Of a DNA stretch of 64,000 bases, positions 892-9,621 are shown piece by piece. Under the pieces are notes generated by a model. The model searched no databases. It worked only from the letters and a program-made list of their open reading frames with translations, and was not told where the DNA came from. Within the stretch, counting starts at the first letter, position 1; every line of letters begins with the position of its first letter. The DNA is from Desulfurococcus amylolyticus Z-533 (GTDB lineage Archaea; Thermoproteota; Thermoprotei_A; Sulfolobales; Desulfurococcaceae): NCBI RefSeq assembly GCF_000513855.1, contig NZ_KI911318.1, forward strand, positions 572,484-636,483, written 5' to 3'. The position numbers and the translations under genes are program-made.

Positions 892-1656
892 TTAAAAGTA
901 ATTGAAACCAATTAAAAGTACCGCGGGTGGGGTTGGCCCTCGGTGCGGGTTCACTAGCTTCACCCGCACCTCATGGGATCCCGTCGAGCCCAACGCCACG
1001 GGGCTCCCATCTGTGGATAGGTGCTTCAATCCTATGTTTACAGTCCCGACGACGTCCCTGTCTAGGGTCAGCCCGTTGCTCAGCCTGGCCAGCCTTAGGG
1101 TGATCTTGGCTACTTTCACCCTCCTGGCCCCTCTCACCACAACGCGGATCACAGAGGGGGTGTAATTTTCAATGGGCCCTCCACTGAAGGGATCCCTCGA
1201 GGAGGAGTACGCCTCCGACACCTCGACGACGTATATGGGCTTGTTGTCCAGTACCTCCACCAGCTTCGAGACGCTCCACTGGTGGATCCTGTGCCTGAGG
1301 CTACCGCTCCCCGCCTTGCCGGCGAGCCTTCTCTTACCCTTGCGGACGTTCCCGACGACCACGACTGCGCTGTTTATATAAGCCAGCTCCTCGATGAACC
1401 TAGCGACCTTGTAGATAATGTCCGTCTTCCTCTTCCTCTCCCTCAGCCTCCTCAGCGCCCTCCTCACACCCCTGTCCTTAGTCGACCTCCCCTCCGCGAT
1501 CCTCCTTCTCCTCTCGGAGTATGCGATGACCATTTTGCCTAGGCTGGTCTCGACCCTATAGACTTCGTACAGCGCTCTATTCTTGAAGACGGCCAATGTG
1601 ACGTTATTCTCGTTAACATCAACAGCAATGATGTTGTTAGGGTTGTAGGAGAACAA
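892..1656 (-). CDS. tnpB: TnpB-family protein (IS200/IS605), N-terminally truncated
   Basis: The 254-residue ORF matches only the RuvC half of TnpB, which is normally about 400 residues. RuvC-I is seen as AVDVNENNVT near residue 12 and RuvC-III as LDRDVVGTVNIGL near residue 200. At the RuvC-II position the protein reads VVVVGNVRKGKR, with no glutamate where the catalytic Glu normally sits. The usual CxxC pairs of the zinc finger are absent (SSSRDPFSGG instead). The reading frame opens after a TAG about 35 bases upstream, so roughly 150 N-terminal residues are missing. The start is TTG and uncertain. No tnpA lies nearby. It could be a decayed element gene or a member of a divergent archaeal TnpB subfamily that has lost nuclease residues. 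Confidence 0.75.
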   Translation of the reverse strand: MFSYNPNNIIAVDVNENNVTLAVFKNRALYEVYRVETSLGKMVIAYSERRRRIAEGRSTKDRGVRRALRRLRERKRKTDIIYKVARFIEELAYINSAVVVVGNVRKGKRRLAGKAGSGSLRHRIHQWSVSKLVEVLDNKPIYVVEVSEAYSSSRDPFSGGPIENYTPSVIRVVVRGARRVKVAKITLRLARLSNGLTLDRDVVGTVNIGLKHLSTDGSPVALGSTGSHEVRVKLVNPHRGPTPPAVLLIGFNYF

Positions 1657-1709: not shown

Positions 1710-2675
1710 CTAGACCTGAACCCAACACGCAACATAATGCCCTTTCTCAACTTCTCTCAAAGGAGGGGTTTCTCTTCTACATATATCCTTTGCATAGGGG
1801 CATCTCGGGTGGAACCTGCATCCAGTGGGTGGATTTATTGGTGATGGGGGTTCACCCTCTAGTTTAATCCTTTTCCTAGTTCTAGCTATCTTTGGATCAG
1901 GTATTGGGACAGCTGAGAGCAACATCTGTGAGTATGGGTGCAACGGGTTATTGAATACTTGATCCGACCCACCTATCTCAACTAGCTTGCCAAGGTACAT
2001 TACCCCGATCCTGTTGCTCATATACTTTACTACTGAGATATCATGGGATATGAAGAGATATGTAAGCCCGAATTTTCTCTGGAGATCCCTTAGTAATTCA
2101 AGCACCTGTGCCTGAACGGATACATCTAGAGCGGAGGTAGGTTCATCGAGAACGATGAATTTAGGCTTCAAGAGTATGGCTCTTAGAATAGCCACTCTCT
2201 GTTTCTGACCACCGCTTAGCTCATGTGGGTACCTATATAAGAGTTCAGGGTTCAACCCCACTAGCTTCATCTGGTCGGCTAGGAAGTCCTCTATATCCCC
2301 CTGTATTTCAACATTATGCTCCCTTATGGGTTCTTCAAGTATCTCTGCAATAGTCATCCTTGGATTCAGAGAGGTATGCGGGTCCTGGAAGACCATCTGG
2401 GTGTTTCTCCTGAATTCCTTGAGCTCACCGCCCTTCAGCCTTGTTATGTCTTTACCCTCAAACATTATTTTTCCATCAGTTGGCTCATGCAGTAGTAGAA
2501 GGAGTTTTCCCAGCGTAGTCTTCCCGCAACCGCTTTCACCTACAAGTCCCAGCGTCTCACCCTTATAGATGGAGAATGATACATCATCTACAGCCTTAAC
2601 TAGTTTCGTTGAGAATAACCCTCTAACCTTGAAGTATTTCTTCAGGTTTACCACATCTATTAATGCCTCACTCAT
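1710..2675 (-). CDS. Peptide-type ABC importer ATPase, OppF/DppF-like
   Basis: This is a 321-residue ABC ATPase. It has Walker A GESGCGKT near residue 47, signature LSGGQKQR, Walker B FIVLDEPTSALD and the switch ISHD. The C-terminal extension carries a four-cysteine cluster (CRFHPRCPYAKDIC then a later C), as in oligopeptide/dipeptide ATPases. It is the last gene of a five-gene minus-strand operon and lies 7 bases after the OppD-like gene. The start ATG follows GGGGTGAT. It should pair with the OppD-like subunit to power import through the two permeases. The substrate cannot be told from the ATPase; peptides are usual, but in Crenarchaeota this family also carries oligosaccharides. Confidence 0.93.
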   Translation of the reverse strand: MSEALIDVVNLKKYFKVRGLFSTKLVKAVDDVSFSIYKGETLGLVGESGCGKTTLGKLLLLLHEPTDGKIMFEGKDITRLKGGELKEFRRNTQMVFQDPHTSLNPRMTIAEILEEPIREHNVEIQGDIEDFLADQMKLVGLNPELLYRYPHELSGGQKQRVAILRAILLKPKFIVLDEPTSALDVSVQAQVLELLRDLQRKFGLTYLFISHDISVVKYMSNRIGVMYLGKLVEIGGSDQVFNNPLHPYSQMLLSAVPIPDPKIARTRKRIKLEGEPPSPINPPTGCRFHPRCPYAKDICRRETPPLREVEKGHYVACWVQV

Positions 2676-2682
2676 CCCTGTA

Positions 2683-3678
2683 TCACCCCTTTACAGCATG
2701 TAGCCAACAGTAAACCTGGTGTGCTTTACCCACTTCAATCATAGGGGGTTCTTCTAGGCACTTCTCCGATGCAAATGGACATCTATCCCTGAACCTGCAT
2801 CCAGGTAGCGGGTTAATGAGGCTTGGAACAGTTCCAGGTATCGATTCCAGTTTCTCAATCTTCTTGGTTGGATCGGGCACCGTTCTCAATAATAGCCTGG
2901 TGTATGGGTGCTGGGGGTTTTCAAATAACTCCTCGACCGGCGCCTCCTCAACTATTTTGCCAGCATACATCACGTACACCCTGTGTGCTACCTCTGCTAC
3001 AACACCCAGGTTGTGTGTAATGAGGATAACGCTCATCCCGTACTTTGCCTGGAGATCCTTTATCAGCTCTAGGATCTGAGCCTGTATGGTGACGTCTAGG
3101 TTAGTTGTGGGCTCATCAGCTATCAGGAGCACTGGGTTATTGCTTAATCCTATGGCTATCACTGATCTCTGCCTCATACCTCCGGATAATTCATGGGGAT
3201 AGTTCTTTACTCTTGACTCAGGGCTCGGGATAAGTGTTTCCTTGAGGAGGTTTACGGCGTGCTGGATGGCGTTCTTCTTATCTATCTTCCTATGGTCAAT
3301 CATTGTTTCATAGAAGTGGTGTCCAATAGTGTAGAGAGGGTCGAGGGCTGATGTAGGATCTTGGAACACGTATGCTATCTCATTCCCTCTTATATCCCTT
3401 ATCTCTTCATCACTTAGACTTAACAAGTCGACTACCTCGCCATTCCTTCTCCTGAAATAGGCTTTACCGCCCTCTATTCTCCCGGGTGGATCTATCAGCC
3501 TTGTAATAGCCTTCGTAGTCACGGATTTCCCACACCCTGTTTCACCAACTAATGCAACTATCTCACCCTTATAGACGTCGAATGAGACGTTTGATACGGC
3601 GTGTACTACTCCAGCGTAGGTGTAGAATTTGACATCGAGGTTTCTAACACTTAGAACCGGGTCTCCCCCAATACTCAT
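2683..3678 (-). CDS. Peptide-type ABC importer ATPase, OppD/DppD-like
   Basis: This is a 331-residue ABC ATPase with Walker A GETGCGKS, signature LSGGMRQR, Walker B LLIADEPTTNLD and switch ITHN. The C-terminal oligopeptide-type tail ends with the cysteines of CRFRDRCPFASEKC. The start ATG overlaps the stop of the OppC-like gene (ATGA) and follows GGTG, so the genes are translationally coupled. It is the partner of the OppF-like ATPase downstream. The length is normal for the family. Confidence 0.93.
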   Translation of the reverse strand: MSIGGDPVLSVRNLDVKFYTYAGVVHAVSNVSFDVYKGEIVALVGETGCGKSVTTKAITRLIDPPGRIEGGKAYFRRRNGEVVDLLSLSDEEIRDIRGNEIAYVFQDPTSALDPLYTIGHHFYETMIDHRKIDKKNAIQHAVNLLKETLIPSPESRVKNYPHELSGGMRQRSVIAIGLSNNPVLLIADEPTTNLDVTIQAQILELIKDLQAKYGMSVILITHNLGVVAEVAHRVYVMYAGKIVEEAPVEELFENPQHPYTRLLLRTVPDPTKKIEKLESIPGTVPSLINPLPGCRFRDRCPFASEKCLEEPPMIEVGKAHQVYCWLHAVKG

Positions 3679-4772
3679 TTCTTCTCACCTCCCTCAGTAA
3701 ACTCTATTGCCCTTCTGGTTCTCGGGTCAAGTATATCCCTTAATGCATCCCCGAGTAGGTTCCAGCCGAGGGCTATTATCAAGAGGACTATGCCTACAAA
3801 GGTAACGATATGGTAGCTCCTATGCGGAAACCAGTTGCCGGCCTTGGATATTATGAAGCCGAGCTCGGGGACAGGCTCCTGCGGACCGAGACCCAGGAAT
3901 GAAAGTGTGGCAGCGAATAACGCTGCTGTAGCTATATCAAACGTCATCATGACTATAATTGGGGAAATAATGTTTGGCAATATATGCTTGAAGAGTATCC
4001 TCCTTGTGGATAAGCCAAGTACTTTGGCAGCCTCCACAAACGTTTGCTCCTTGGCACTTAACACGCTTCCCCTAACTATCCTGGCGTAACCGGGCCACCA
4101 TACTAGTATCATGGCTATCCATACAGCTAGTAGTGAAGCTATCTGGGGATACTCATTCACTCTTAAACCTAGAAGTGCTGCAAGGAAGTCTCTTAGCATG
4201 GTGTTCGACTCCAAGAGTAATCTGAGCCTTTCTGGCAGCACTGCAGCAAATGCTATTGCGAGAACTAGCGCTGGGAAAGCCATGAATATGTCTGTAAGCC
4301 TCATTATTATTTCATCGATTACACCACCCTTGTAACCTGCTACCAGTCCCAGTATTATACCTAATGGTGCCCCGAATAATACTACTAGGATTGAGATAAT
4401 GAAGGAGATCCTGACACCCACGAGTGTTATAGAGAGTAGATCCCTCCCCCATTCATCGGTTCCAAGTAATGGACCCCCAGTACACCATGGTGGGATACAT
4501 GGGGGTAGTAGTTTTAGATCGGGGTTATTTATCACCGGGTAAACCCAGTAGGGTTCCCATGCAATAATAGGGCCTACTATGGCTAGTACTACCTCGATGA
4601 ACACTAGTATTCCACCAAGCACCCCGATCTTGCTCTTACTGAAAGCGTAAGCCATGAGCTTCCATTCACGTATCCTGGAGCTATTCTTCTCCTTCCAACC
4701 CTTATTGATCTTATCTCTCAGTGATGCATAGCTATCTATTATCTTAACGAGTAGTTTATATATTGCCTCCAT
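3675..4772 (-). CDS. Peptide-type ABC importer permease, OppC/DppC-like
   Basis: An inner-membrane permease of about 365 residues. A cytoplasmic N-terminal stretch is followed by a first transmembrane helix near residues 55-75 (GVLGGILVFIEVVLAIVG). The OppC N-domain motif LLGTDEWGRDLLSITLVGVR follows. The BPD-transporter core has the EAA loop VEAAKVLGLSTRRILFKHIL, which contacts the ATPases. I chose ATG at 4772 because GGGGGTGG lies just upstream; in-frame GTG codons at 4781 and 4778 are alternatives. It lies 12 bases after the OppB-like gene. Confidence 0.92.
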   Translation of the reverse strand: MEAIYKLLVKIIDSYASLRDKINKGWKEKNSSRIREWKLMAYAFSKSKIGVLGGILVFIEVVLAIVGPIIAWEPYWVYPVINNPDLKLLPPCIPPWCTGGPLLGTDEWGRDLLSITLVGVRISFIISILVVLFGAPLGIILGLVAGYKGGVIDEIIMRLTDIFMAFPALVLAIAFAAVLPERLRLLLESNTMLRDFLAALLGLRVNEYPQIASLLAVWIAMILVWWPGYARIVRGSVLSAKEQTFVEAAKVLGLSTRRILFKHILPNIISPIIVMMTFDIATAALFAATLSFLGLGPQEPVPELGFIISKAGNWFPHRSYHIVTFVGIVLLIIALGWNLLGDALRDILDPRTRRAIEFTEGGEKK

Positions 4773-4784
4773 TAACACCACCCC

Positions 4785-5843
4785 CTAATATCTTATCCTC
4801 GGGTCGAGGACTGCATAGATTATGTCAACTATTAGGTTCACCGTTACATATACTATGGCTACCAGGAAGGTACCACCAATTATTGCTGGGAAGTTAAGCC
4901 TTGTTATAGCATTATAGATGTATCTACCGAGACCCGGTATATTGAACACTGTCTCAGCAACTATCGCGCCTGAGAGTAAGCCGCCGAAAAGCGTCCCCAG
5001 CACTGTTACAACTGGTATGGAGGCGTTCTTTAATGCATGCATCCATATCCTCCTCTTCCTAAGGCCTCTCGCCTTAGCATATTGAATATACTCCTGGCTG
5101 AGACTATCGAGCAGGCTGTTTCTAACTATCCTCGCTATTAATCCACCATCCAGTAACCCCAGTGCTAATCCAGGTAGGTAAAGCCTCCTGAAGGTATCGG
5201 CTACAACACCCCATTCACCACACATCATTGCACCGAACATTGGGACGCTTCCAATAGCCGATACAATGTGCCCTATCACCGGTATTTTACTAGGTAGGCT
5301 TGAAATAGACGCTATACATGTCTGTGAGGGGAACGGCATTCCAGCTAGAACCGTGGTATGCATGTACGTGAACAAGAAGAGGATGAGGAAGTAGTATAAG
5401 ACGAATGCTGGTAGAGAACTCCCAACCAGTGCGAAAATCCTAACAAAGAAGTCTACTATCGAATCCTTTTTTAGAGCCGCTATGAAGCCTAGTGGTATGC
5501 CTATAATAGCCGTGAAGACAAAACCCATTATAGCTACCTCAACCGTTATAGGGAATCTGTAGAATAACTCATCAAAGATGTTCCTGTGTTGTATAGGGTC
5601 TTCAAGGTTACCTGTTAGAAGACTGGTGACTAAGAACGCGAATTGCTCATACCATGGTGCATCAAACTTGTATTTCGCGCGTATTTCTTCAAGGGCCTCC
5701 CTGTTCATTAATTTCTCTCCGACCCAGGCCCTAACAGGATCCGCTGGTATGGCGTATGCTATAAGGTAAGTTATGAATAATACTCCTATTATCGTGGGTA
5801 TGAAGGTAGCTACTCTTCTGGCTAGAAATCTTCCCAGACCCAT
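4785..5843 (-). CDS. Peptide-type ABC importer permease, OppB/DppB-like
   Basis: A 352-residue multi-spanning permease. The N-terminus (LGRFLARRVATFIPTIIGV) is typical of OppB. The EAA loop is QYAKARGLRKRRIWMHALKN, followed by the family motif near VAETVFNIPGLGRYIYNAI. The long extracytoplasmic loop before it (about residues 170-210, with two cysteines) is larger than in bacterial OppB. The start ATG follows a purine-rich GAGGGAG. It is the second gene of the operon, 58 bases after the binding-protein gene and separated from it by a run of T. Confidence 0.92.
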   Translation of the reverse strand: MGLGRFLARRVATFIPTIIGVLFITYLIAYAIPADPVRAWVGEKLMNREALEEIRAKYKFDAPWYEQFAFLVTSLLTGNLEDPIQHRNIFDELFYRFPITVEVAIMGFVFTAIIGIPLGFIAALKKDSIVDFFVRIFALVGSSLPAFVLYYFLILFLFTYMHTTVLAGMPFPSQTCIASISSLPSKIPVIGHIVSAIGSVPMFGAMMCGEWGVVADTFRRLYLPGLALGLLDGGLIARIVRNSLLDSLSQEYIQYAKARGLRKRRIWMHALKNASIPVVTVLGTLFGGLLSGAIVAETVFNIPGLGRYIYNAITRLNFPAIIGGTFLVAIVYVTVNLIVDIIYAVLDPRIRY

Positions 5844-5901: not shown

Positions 5902-8034
5902 CTATGGTTTGAAGCCGTAGAGTTCATACCATACTGTCGCGTTCCAGTAGTATGGGTTAAGTTTTAATAGTATGTAGCTGTCTTCCTTGTAGTCGGCTAC
6001 GTAGTATGGACCGGTGCTCACCGGTTTATCCTTTAATAGCTTGTAAGTAGGGTCGTCTTCACCTTCAAGAACGTACCTGGCCCACGCCGCGGGGTTCTTA
6101 CCATTATTACTGTCGGCTAGTGCCTGCTGGTATTGGTTTCCTAGGGCGTACTCCATCGGTATAACACATCCCACAGCCGTCGTCAATACGTGGAGTATAG
6201 GCGGATATGGGAACTTCAGCTTTAACTTGACAACCCCAGCCGTCTGACCAGAGTAATTGAAGAAACCTAGTAGTTCATCAAGGCTTTTAACGGTCTTCGA
6301 CTGCCCATGATATACGGTTGACAAGCCGTTGCTTACCACCTGCTTAAACTCGTCCTCGGTTAGCACCTGCGATGCATTCACATCTATGAAGTCCGAGATC
6401 ATCCAGGATGGACCTCCAGGCAGGTTTGTCCTAGCCGCTCTCCAAATACTGAATAGGACGTCGGTTGCATCTATCGGGTATGTCTTATTGTTCCATGGAT
6501 CGTAAGCCTGTACACCGCCCCTTATAACAAGGTATAGATCAGTGGCGTCACTACTGAACGCCCATGCCACGGCTAGCTCTGGCTCGGGATCAGTGTTTTC
6601 ATAGTAGTATGTTATTGGCCTACTGTATATCTGCCAGAATATCTCCCATCCAAACGACTCGTAGGACTTAGCTGGATCAAATGTATCCGGCCATCCAATA
6701 GTAGCAATAACCATAGTGTTAGGGTCGTTTCTTATCCCTGATACACCCGTGTCAACCACTGGTGCATTAGGGTCTTCCCACACCAAGTCGTATCTAGCGA
6801 ACGCTGAAAGCGGGTAGTACATGTTGTAGACCCATGATCCATAATTACGTTCTCCAACCTGCTGCCCTAGCATTATCATCGGGGACTCATTATTGAACAC
6901 TATTACGGCGGCATTGATTACGGCACTCCTAATATCTGGGTCAAGCACTGTTCTCGAGAGCTTCACTAACGCGCTTACAGGTATATCCTTCCAGCCAGGC
7001 GCACCTATAGTCACCATTGATACTGGTTTCTCCCAGTTCTTCATGGTTTCCTCCTCATCCAGCACATAGCTGACAACTAGTATCGGCTTGTTTGCTGGAC
7101 CAGTATATGATGCCCCACTACCCTTCGGACCTACTACAACAATGTATTTCTCTGTGTCTATAACCCTTTCAACCCTGGAAACGTGGTTGGATACATCGTT
7201 TGGTGATGAAGCCTTATAGTAATTGATCTCGGTGAACTCGGCACCACCCCATACGAATGGCATCAGGTAGTTATCTGGGTCGAGGTAGTCTGGGATCCAG
7301 CCTAGTAATGCAACATCGAAGTTGAAGTTATCTACTTTATCGAGATACTGGGGCCAGTTATATGTGTTAACTATTACTCTAAAGCCTAATTGGCTCCACG
7401 CGTTCTGCAGCATTGCAGCTATCTGCTGCCTCGCTGTGTTACCCTGGTTGTACGCTATTTCTATCGTGTACTTGGAGGGATCGAAGCCCCTCTGCTTTAA
7501 TTGATCTATTATCTCCCTGGCCTTAGTTAAATTATACTCGTACTTAACGATATTATACTCGGTGTATCCCTGTAACCCCTTAGGCACTATTGTATATAAC
7601 CTCGTGTAGAGCCCGCTGAACACTTGATCCAATATAGCCTGATACGGTGTAGCCCATGCAAGGGCCTGCCTCACCTCTGTTATATTAAACGGCTCCTTCA
7701 TAGTGTTGAGGATTATATGCTGTATTGTCAACATGGGCCTGCTTGGATCGAAGGCTAGTACAAGCTTAAAGTTTCCTACCGGCGTATTATTTATATCCCT
7801 CCACCTACTAGGTGTTACAACAGCTATATCAACCGTGCCTGATTGATATAATTGAATCCTGGTATTCTCATCATTAGATATCAAGTAAAGTACCTGGGTG
7901 TGGATAGGCTTAGTGGGCTTAGTGACCTGGGTTGGCTGCTGCATGCTGCTCCAATAATAAGCTCCTATACCGATAGCTATTACGACTATTAGAATGAGGA
8001 TTATTGCAACGGTCCTACTTAGAGCTTTACTCAC
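5902..8034 (-). CDS. Solute-binding protein family 5 (OppA-like) with halves in permuted order
   Basis: An anchored extracytoplasmic binding protein of about 710 residues; residue numbers below count from GTG 8043. A membrane helix (residues about 11-29) is followed by a short T/P-rich linker. Residues 46-270 match what is normally the C-terminal half of SBP_bac_5: QLYQSGTVDIAV, IILNTMKEPF, VRQALAWATP, then a Rossmann-like region and DYLDPDNYL. Residues 365-425 resemble the usual C-terminal tail. Residues 440-713 match the normal N-terminal half: TIGWPDTFDPA, PELAVAWAFSSD, YPIDATDVLFSIWRA, STGPYYV and finally LKLNPYYW. The order is thus C-half then N-half. GTG at 8034 is preferred because AGGTGG ends 5 bases before it; GTG at 8043 is the alternative. 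It is the first gene of the importer operon. Ligand unknown. Confidence 0.88.
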   Translation of the reverse strand: MSKALSRTVAIILILIVVIAIGIGAYYWSSMQQPTQVTKPTKPIHTQVLYLISNDENTRIQLYQSGTVDIAVVTPSRWRDINNTPVGNFKLVLAFDPSRPMLTIQHIILNTMKEPFNITEVRQALAWATPYQAILDQVFSGLYTRLYTIVPKGLQGYTEYNIVKYEYNLTKAREIIDQLKQRGFDPSKYTIEIAYNQGNTARQQIAAMLQNAWSQLGFRVIVNTYNWPQYLDKVDNFNFDVALLGWIPDYLDPDNYLMPFVWGGAEFTEINYYKASSPNDVSNHVSRVERVIDTEKYIVVVGPKGSGASYTGPANKPILVVSYVLDEEETMKNWEKPVSMVTIGAPGWKDIPVSALVKLSRTVLDPDIRSAVINAAVIVFNNESPMIMLGQQVGERNYGSWVYNMYYPLSAFARYDLVWEDPNAPVVDTGVSGIRNDPNTMVIATIGWPDTFDPAKSYESFGWEIFWQIYSRPITYYYENTDPEPELAVAWAFSSDATDLYLVIRGGVQAYDPWNNKTYPIDATDVLFSIWRAARTNLPGGPSWMISDFIDVNASQVLTEDEFKQVVSNGLSTVYHGQSKTVKSLDELLGFFNYSGQTAGVVKLKLKFPYPPILHVLTTAVGCVIPMEYALGNQYQQALADSNNGKNPAAWARYVLEGEDDPTYKLLKDKPVSTGPYYVADYKEDSYILLKLNPYYWNATVWYELYGFKP

Positions 8035-8072
8035 ATATACCACCTACATGGTGTAGTAATAGGTATAAACAA

Positions 8073-8127: not shown

Positions 8128-9621
8128 GTGAGGGAAATGAATGGGTGGAGAACTGTTTTAGTTTCCATAATATTATCCCTTATCATAGCATATATTATCG
8201 GCTCACTATACCCATTACCTATCGTTGGGCTAGGTTGGGGAAATCCTGTGTCAACCATCACTAAGACATCTACTAGAACCGTTACTGAGACAAGCACCGT
8301 GACCACCACTTTGACCAGCGAGATATATAGGACGACCACCGTAACCACCACCCTCTCAGAGACAATTATGTCGAGCACCATGGTTACATTTACCTCTACA
8401 ACAACAATTATTGAAGCACGTGAGTTAACCAGCCTGGAGCTGATTATACCGTCGTTCAGACTTGTTGATGGGGGAGGCGAGTTAATGCTTGCTGGACGTT
8501 ACATAGTCCTGAGATATACTTCATGGAGGCCGGTGTTAATCATGGTGGATGCAGTAAATAATACCAACTATTTCTACCTCACGCCTTTCCAGATAACAGT
8601 GCCTGCTGTGTATGCTAAGCTCCTGGAGTATGATGGATTATACTATATGGAAATATATGACGTAGCCGAGATTACCGATACGATTTCATCAAGGGGGCTG
8701 AGTAGGCCTATATTGTTATTCAAGGCTTTGAACGGCTGGGCCTGTAATATTGCCTCATCCACCTCCACGATCAATATCACTGACTGCAGGACTACACCTA
8801 TTAAAGTGGAGGCAGGTACTGGGGCAACGATTATTGAGGCTGTGGTGAAATATGTGAATACATCATCAATACAGTACGTCTCTAGTCTCCTATACGGTGA
8901 TAGCCAGCCACGAGACCTGGGGAATGCATCCTGGAGACTGCTTCAATGGCTTGAAGAAAACACTTCATACGACTACGTTAAGGCGGACAGTAACTATAGC
9001 TACATATATGATCCAATAACCTTCGCTAACATAAGGAAGGGAATATGTACGGATTACGCATTGTTCACCGCTACAGCTCTCATTAACCTGAGTAGTAGTG
9101 TGTACATACTCGTCTTCAACACCACTAAGGTGGGGCATGCAACAGCGGGCATCGTGATCGGTGGTGGATTCTTTATATTGGACCAGGGGCTACCGCCTAT
9201 CGAGTTAGAGGACTATTTCAGCAGCCTGGAATCCATAATAGGCGGTGTATTGGTTGGCGACGTATTCCTTCATGAAGTATGGATCGAAAACAACACTGTT
9301 AAACTATTGATGATCAGGACCTCCCTCGAAGACCTATTGAGGAAGTACCCTGATACAAATACGCTCGACGATGTCACGCCTGGTTTTATTAACGAGCTAA
9401 TTAACGTGTTAAGGGAGAGATATAGGTATAATCCGGGAGCAAGACCCACTGGTTGCCTGGAATTCAATTGGGGCGGATTCAAGTATTACAGTGATATATT
9501 CGCCCACGAATACGCTGTCTACGTGGCTGACAGGTTAACGGGTACGCTGGGAGCTAATATAGTTATAACTGATGTAGATGTACCAAAATCGTACACTATA
9601 CGTGTATGCTACCAGGGTTGA
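8128..9621 (+). CDS. Membrane-anchored transglutaminase-like extracellular protein
   Basis: A 497-residue protein with an N-terminal membrane helix (about residues 9-29) and a Ser/Thr-rich linker (about 41-94) that suggests a glycosylated stalk outside the cell. The C-terminal part has the transglutaminase/papain-like triad pattern: Cys307 in KGICTDYALF, His337 in VGHATAG, Asp352 in FFILDQG. The family cleaves or crosslinks proteins at Gln/Cys; the true activity here is unknown. GTG at 8128 is 10 bases after GGAGG; an in-frame ATG lies at 8137. It is divergent from the peptide-type importer, so a link to peptide supply is possible but only inferred. Confidence 0.78.
   Translation: MREMNGWRTVLVSIILSLIIAYIIGSLYPLPIVGLGWGNPVSTITKTSTRTVTETSTVTTTLTSEIYRTTTVTTTLSETIMSSTMVTFTSTTTIIEARELTSLELIIPSFRLVDGGGELMLAGRYIVLRYTSWRPVLIMVDAVNNTNYFYLTPFQITVPAVYAKLLEYDGLYYMEIYDVAEITDTISSRGLSRPILLFKALNGWACNIASSTSTINITDCRTTPIKVEAGTGATIIEAVVKYVNTSSIQYVSSLLYGDSQPRDLGNASWRLLQWLEENTSYDYVKADSNYSYIYDPITFANIRKGICTDYALFTATALINLSSSVYILVFNTTKVGHATAGIVIGGGFFILDQGLPPIELEDYFSSLESIIGGVLVGDVFLHEVWIENNTVKLLMIRTSLEDLLRKYPDTNTLDDVTPGFINELINVLRERYRYNPGARPTGCLEFNWGGFKYYSDIFAHEYAVYVADRLTGTLGANIVITDVDVPKSYTIRVCYQG

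Follow-up and report, generated by a model that had tools for sequence, protein, structure and literature searches.

The window analysed here is a stretch of 64,000 nucleotides from the genome of Desulfurococcus amylolyticus Z-533. On its minus strand, a gene at 5902..8043 (start codon GTG at 8043, stop codon at 5902-5904) encodes a protein of 713 amino acids in which the parts of a family-5 solute-binding protein (SBP) are found in a rearranged order. This raises the question of whether the protein is a circular permutant and, if so, how many times such a rearrangement has taken place. The evidence set out below indicates that it is very probably a functional, membrane-anchored, circularly permuted SBP of family 5 (cluster C, DppA/OppA-like), and that it comes from an archaeal family which has been permuted repeatedly.

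Segment order of the window protein

Translation of the minus-strand ORF at 5902-8043 contained all of the motifs quoted in the original prediction, in the order given there. The anchor, QLYQSGTVDIAV, VRQALAWATP and DYLDPDNYL make up the first part, followed by TIGWPDTFDPA, YPIDATDVLFSIWRA, STGPYYV, LKLNPYYW and the terminal YELYGFKP. If the canonical chain is written N-M-C, these segments correspond to window residues 441-705 (N), 46-284 (M) and 318-440 (C), and the architecture of the window protein is anchor-M-C-N.

The features follow one another along the minus strand. A hydrophobic membrane anchor helix (residues 7-32; 7948..8025), recognized from the sequence and as a low-pLDDT helix (H7-32) in the model, precedes segment M (residues 46-284; 7192..7908), which is canonically mid-chain but is first here (PF00496 profile 139-361; DppA 209 onward). 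Insert X (residues 275-352; 6988..7221) is a strand-rich, family-specific element of approximately 75 residues, with no counterpart in the canonical SBPs examined. Segment C (residues 318-440; 6724..7092), canonically C-terminal, lies mid-chain; in the model it can be followed to residue 424, equivalent to DppA 507, and phmmer matched it to DppA 462-504. Alignment and model place the linker between the former C-terminus and the former N-terminus at residues ~424-440 (6724..6774). Segment N (residues 441-705; 5929..6723), canonically the N-terminal half, is last (PF00496 profile 2-144; phmmer DppA 29-125 and 206-235). The new C-terminal tail, NATVWYELYGFKP (5905..5943), is conserved in proteins of M-C-N order and fused to M in those of C-N-M order.

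The window protein scored 193.5 bits against PF00496 (cutoff 32.4). In the written order the match consists of two inverted pieces rather than one collinear hit, with residues 29-264 matching profile 139-361 and the later half matching profile 2-144. Chance is excluded for both pieces, since as separate hits they reach 149.6 bits (E = 4.7e-44) and 50.9 bits (E = 5.2e-14). When the chain was rotated (441-713 followed by 44-440), a single collinear match to profile 2-361 of 368 was obtained (201 bits). As collinearity appears only after rotation, the protein is a circular permutant of the PF00496 family and not a standard member. The inversion was also evident residue by residue with phmmer against the PDB: 442-536 matched DppA 29-125 and 673-702 matched DppA 206-235, while on the M/C side 102-263 matched DppA 287-447 and 351-393 matched DppA 462-504. 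Two other full-profile PF00496 proteins in the window genome (546 and 608 aa) are canonical and collinear, so the inverted pattern is not a product of the tool. Comparison with NCBIfam equivalogs gave partial matches only, far below their cutoffs. The window genome also contains an SBP-like open frame of 984 aa (L035:1111-3543), whose PF00496 match is limited to profile 209-361.

Structure models

An AlphaFold model of the window protein, for which 25 aligned M-C-N proteins served as input, had a pLDDT of 82.6 and a pTM of 0.81, the parts of low confidence being the anchor end and residues 460-488. Residues 46-424 of this model superpose on residues 209-507 of Escherichia coli DppA (1dpp_A; Z 28.8, rmsd 2.4, 292 residues); the superposition stops at DppA 507, where the native chain of DppA ends. 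The second half of the model fell outside the sequential structural alignment, as would be predicted for a permutant. In the model of a C-N-M relative, L040 (pLDDT 94.7, pTM 0.92), residues 160-661 match DppA 1-442 (Z 23.3, rmsd 2.1, 407 residues) and the first 158 residues are the C part. Combined, the two models cover the entire canonical chain. In the window family a stretch of ~16 residues bridges the native termini, and both models show the expected fold. The window protein is thus predicted to have the cluster C (DppA/OppA) fold, residues 46-424 being matched on its own model and the remaining part on that of its relative L040. A profile of the C-N junction block, compared with the PDB, found no chain spanning the C-to-N junction.

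A family in several orders

Relatives were sought in 61 related genomes and 84,980 species genomes, their N, M and C segments were ordered by profile HMMs, and duplicates were then removed. Of the 107 distinct ordered relatives, 41 have the M-C-N order and 65 the C-N-M order, while a single protein, L073, is cut within M and represents a third kind; none of the 107 has the canonical order. The entire family is permuted, with several different cut points. The circular permutation put forward in the original prediction is backed by the written and rotated PF00496 matches, by the structure models and by homologues in many independent genomes. The same M-C-N order was found in many genomes, complete ones included, and the 'seamless join' foreseen between the last residues and the first after the anchor exists in relatives, as C-N-M linkers such as NKELWQDLYGQDKPQHELAIFLIND. 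What had been overlooked is that the window order is one among several permutations in one family.

C-N-M proteins appear collinear to Pfam because PF00496 spans only the middle of the protein, and the displaced C segment is the sole sign of their permutation. In an even sample the family was present in 39 of 398 Thermoproteota genomes, with several single-contig assemblies of each type; it was also found in 64 of 94 Thermococcaceae genomes and in seven of 59 from Archaeoglobi. The species-genome search gave members in Desulfurococcales, Pyrodictiaceae, Acidilobaceae, Thermofilum, Pyrobaculum, Thermococcus and Archaeoglobus, and both order types are present in complete genomes. One Thermococcaceae genome (G436) has a second, diverged C-N-M gene (L161), broken by the start of the record, in addition to the copy at C1:1818137-1820080.

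Twenty C-N-M or third-kind proteins were aligned to a doubled M-C-N reference, and in every case the alignment followed the reference around nearly the full circle as one rotated stretch, with only one cut. Expressed in window residues, the M-C-N type of the window is cut at 713/46, most C-N-M proteins at ~275-284/286-292, a deep-branching C-N-M group at ~305-307/319-322 and L073 exactly at 91/92, with 663/663 residues spanned. This last type of cut is known from L073:1957-4401 alone, on a 4.9 kb metagenomic contig binned as Thermoplasmata. There are at least three cut points besides the canonical one. Insert X is located at the C-N-M cut site, and a short helix within it is C-terminal in Desulfurococcales C-N-M proteins and N-terminal in one Thermococcus group (L076 and relatives), a difference in placement that hints at separate cutting events.

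Candidate linker scars and a probable route

A conserved tail, NxTLWxxLYGyKP, closes the M-C-N proteins, and the sequence that follows their anchor opens with KPxHxxVLYLI. In the deep-branching C-N-M proteins, N is joined to M by five to seven residues after a conserved W (NPYYWGGKPSIKEVFIKLI). The C-N-M proteins of Desulfurococcales and Archaeoglobus have N-M linkers of 13-16 residues that resemble an M-C-N tail running into an M-C-N head (L057, NVTLWKQLYGTNAPEHKTAIFLIN; L135, NKELWQDLYGQDKPQHELAIFLIN; L072, GKALWDEMYADTSKAKHETVIWVIN). Judged from these sequences, such linkers are the remnant that would be expected if an M-C-N gene were duplicated head to tail and then trimmed, which suggests that the Desulfurococcales and Archaeoglobus genes carrying them passed through an M-C-N state. 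The deep C-N-M group bears two halves of X, one at each end, and X may have arisen by fusion of the tails that an earlier C-N-M protein carried.

Permutation probably began with an in-frame tandem duplication of the SBP gene, after which the outer parts would have been lost, with an N-terminal export signal or anchor always being kept in front. The product would adopt the usual two-lobe fold of a binding protein and pass its ligand on to the DppBCDF importer; the benefit, if any, would be a changed tethering point. Within some 8 kb around the loci, no head-to-tail duplicated intermediate was detected. The identical final order would be reached if the gene had split into N and M+C ORFs and these had then rejoined the other way round, with no complete tandem duplication involved, and broken copies do exist in a few genomes (for example G443, with separate frames of 495 aa and 284 aa). 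Nevertheless, this route is unlikely, as intact, separately encoded swapped halves were found in no genome and several cut points would demand several cycles of fission and fusion, while C-N-M linkers that look like an M-C-N tail plus head fit a head-to-tail duplication.

Number of events

When 71 family members were placed in a tree together with canonical outgroups, the permuted proteins formed one clade (support 100), and six changes of order were needed to explain it; a tree of 69 members likewise required six. Forcing all M-C-N proteins into one clade was very costly (delta lnL 407, AU p = 5e-23), and a single origin of the M-C-N order is rejected by these sequence trees. In a euryarchaeal tree, three M-C-N proteins (L062, L144 and L145) group with the C-N-M proteins of Archaeoglobus, inside those of Thermococcus, and forcing the C-N-M proteins together cost 42 lnL units (p = 7e-5). 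When N and M were treated separately, these Palaeococcus-like M-C-N proteins fell inside C-N-M both times, with different sisters. The disagreement between the N and M trees over the sisters makes it likely that some recombination has occurred and leaves the exact event count uncertain.

The most direct comparison is within the Thermococcales, between L145 (M-C-N) and L147/L148 (C-N-M). The flanking genes on both sides are common to these loci, in the same order and orientation, and the SBP segments, taken separately, are 82-83% identical, a level equal to that of the adjoining dpp genes. The shared flanks and equal identity therefore show a change of order at what looks like one chromosomal locus. 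The family has been permuted more than once.

It might be argued that there was one ancestral permutation and that the repeated changes are only apparent, M-C-N and C-N-M lineages having exchanged genes and recombined. The differing sisters of the Palaeococcus-like proteins would agree with this, and the copies in Archaeoglobus and Thermoplasmata look transferred. However, transfer cannot make a second, third or fourth cut point, and all four of the cuts given above exist; together with the strong rejection of a lone M-C-N clade, this leaves a single permutation very improbable. Mobile termini are the probable explanation of the data, with at least four cut regions, several independent events (some of them recent and syntenic) and X, as fused earlier tails, reused as a cut site.

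Operon, tether and neighbouring genes

As predicted, the gene leads an importer operon. It is followed on the same (minus) strand by genes for a DppB-type permease (4785..5843; PF00528), a DppC-type permease (3675..4781; PF00528, PF12911), a DppD-type ATPase (2683..3678; PF00005, PF08352) and a DppF-type ATPase (1710..2675; PF00005, PF08352). Among 104 loci, the DppB gene is directly downstream on the same strand in 96 and the dpp genes are divergent in three more; the remaining five have no DppB in the stretch covered. From the operon and its long-term conservation, the protein is most likely the tethered receptor of an Opp/Dpp-type importer. The tether is an N-terminal hydrophobic helix in the window protein and a lipobox-type signal (SGCIGGG) in Thermococcales. 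As it is always N-terminal, every permutation places the tether at a different point of the protein surface.

The ligands of family-5 proteins are peptides, metals (nickel), oligosaccharides or similar compounds. In the L129 lineage, adjacency to a GH3 β-glucosidase gene hints at a sugar ligand. At this locus (L129:7241-11131, genome G236), an assembly gap of N separates the two genes, and the β-glucosidase frame continues through it into the M-C-N gene.

The possibility that the permuted gene is a decaying relic is very remote, given frames that are open across 107 distinct proteins, conserved motifs, confident models and a conserved operon. Since many relatives are metagenome-assembled contigs, it might be suspected that two SBP genes were misjoined, in an incorrect order, during assembly or binning. 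Independent complete genomes refute this: the window genome consists of a single contig, each type occurs in several further single-contig genomes, the order is common to tens of species at 45-90% identity with frames intact, and flanking synteny is conserved.

The divergent neighbour (8128-9621, plus strand) encodes a DUF553 transglutaminase-like protein with an N-terminal membrane helix and a Thr-rich linker. Behind the DppF gene, a 254-aa ORF (892-1656, minus strand) is a 5'-truncated TnpB-like transposase, an ordinary insertion-element fragment. A fuller copy, 90% identical and with a frame of 452 aa, is present elsewhere in the window genome (G000:C1:237830-238564). A role for this ORF as a TnpB-derived regulator was rejected, as it is a truncated copy of an intact element.

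Comparison with known systems

Across many thermophilic archaea, the ends of this protein have moved several times in evolution while its gene stayed at the head of one import operon. Orthologues that are syntenic and 82% identical, with candidate linker scars, make the duplication-and-trimming model, and the frequency of such events, directly testable. How permutation affects the folding of the protein, its tethering and delivery to the importer likewise becomes testable in close orthologues. In addition, annotation and alignment that assume collinearity misread part of the archaeal family-5 SBPs, the C-N-M type being invisible to Pfam alone.

The window protein resembles the SBPs of family 5/cluster C (DppA, OppA and NikA; PF00496) in its homologous segments, predicted fold and DppBCDF partners, and differs from them in its rotated chain and the extra insert X of ~75 residues. 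CbtA of the archaeon Pyrococcus furiosus, a binding protein of the Opp/Dpp family, is an example from the family-5 importers of hyperthermophiles, which are possible functional analogues. The ligand of CbtA is cellobiose (PMC11212667).

In the open-access literature no publication on a permuted family-5 binding protein was found, the search yielding only engineered sensors, unrelated papers and a case among glycine betaine-binding proteins. As a rule, circular permutation has been deduced by comparing distant folds. DNA methyltransferases have been permuted repeatedly within one family and in this are like the present SBPs, although the class of protein differs. Methyltransferases are listed among natural permutants in a study with CPSARST, which also reported, by structure, circular permutants among glycine betaine-binding proteins of the ProX/OpuAC type at < 24% identity (PMC2395249). 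The latter are, like the present family, natural permutants among the binding proteins of ABC importers. However, they belong to a different SBP cluster, and in the present family the orders differ at 82% identity and at one locus. Circular permutation as such is already known; what is new here is its repetition within one SBP family and the existence of close, syntenic orthologues in different order.
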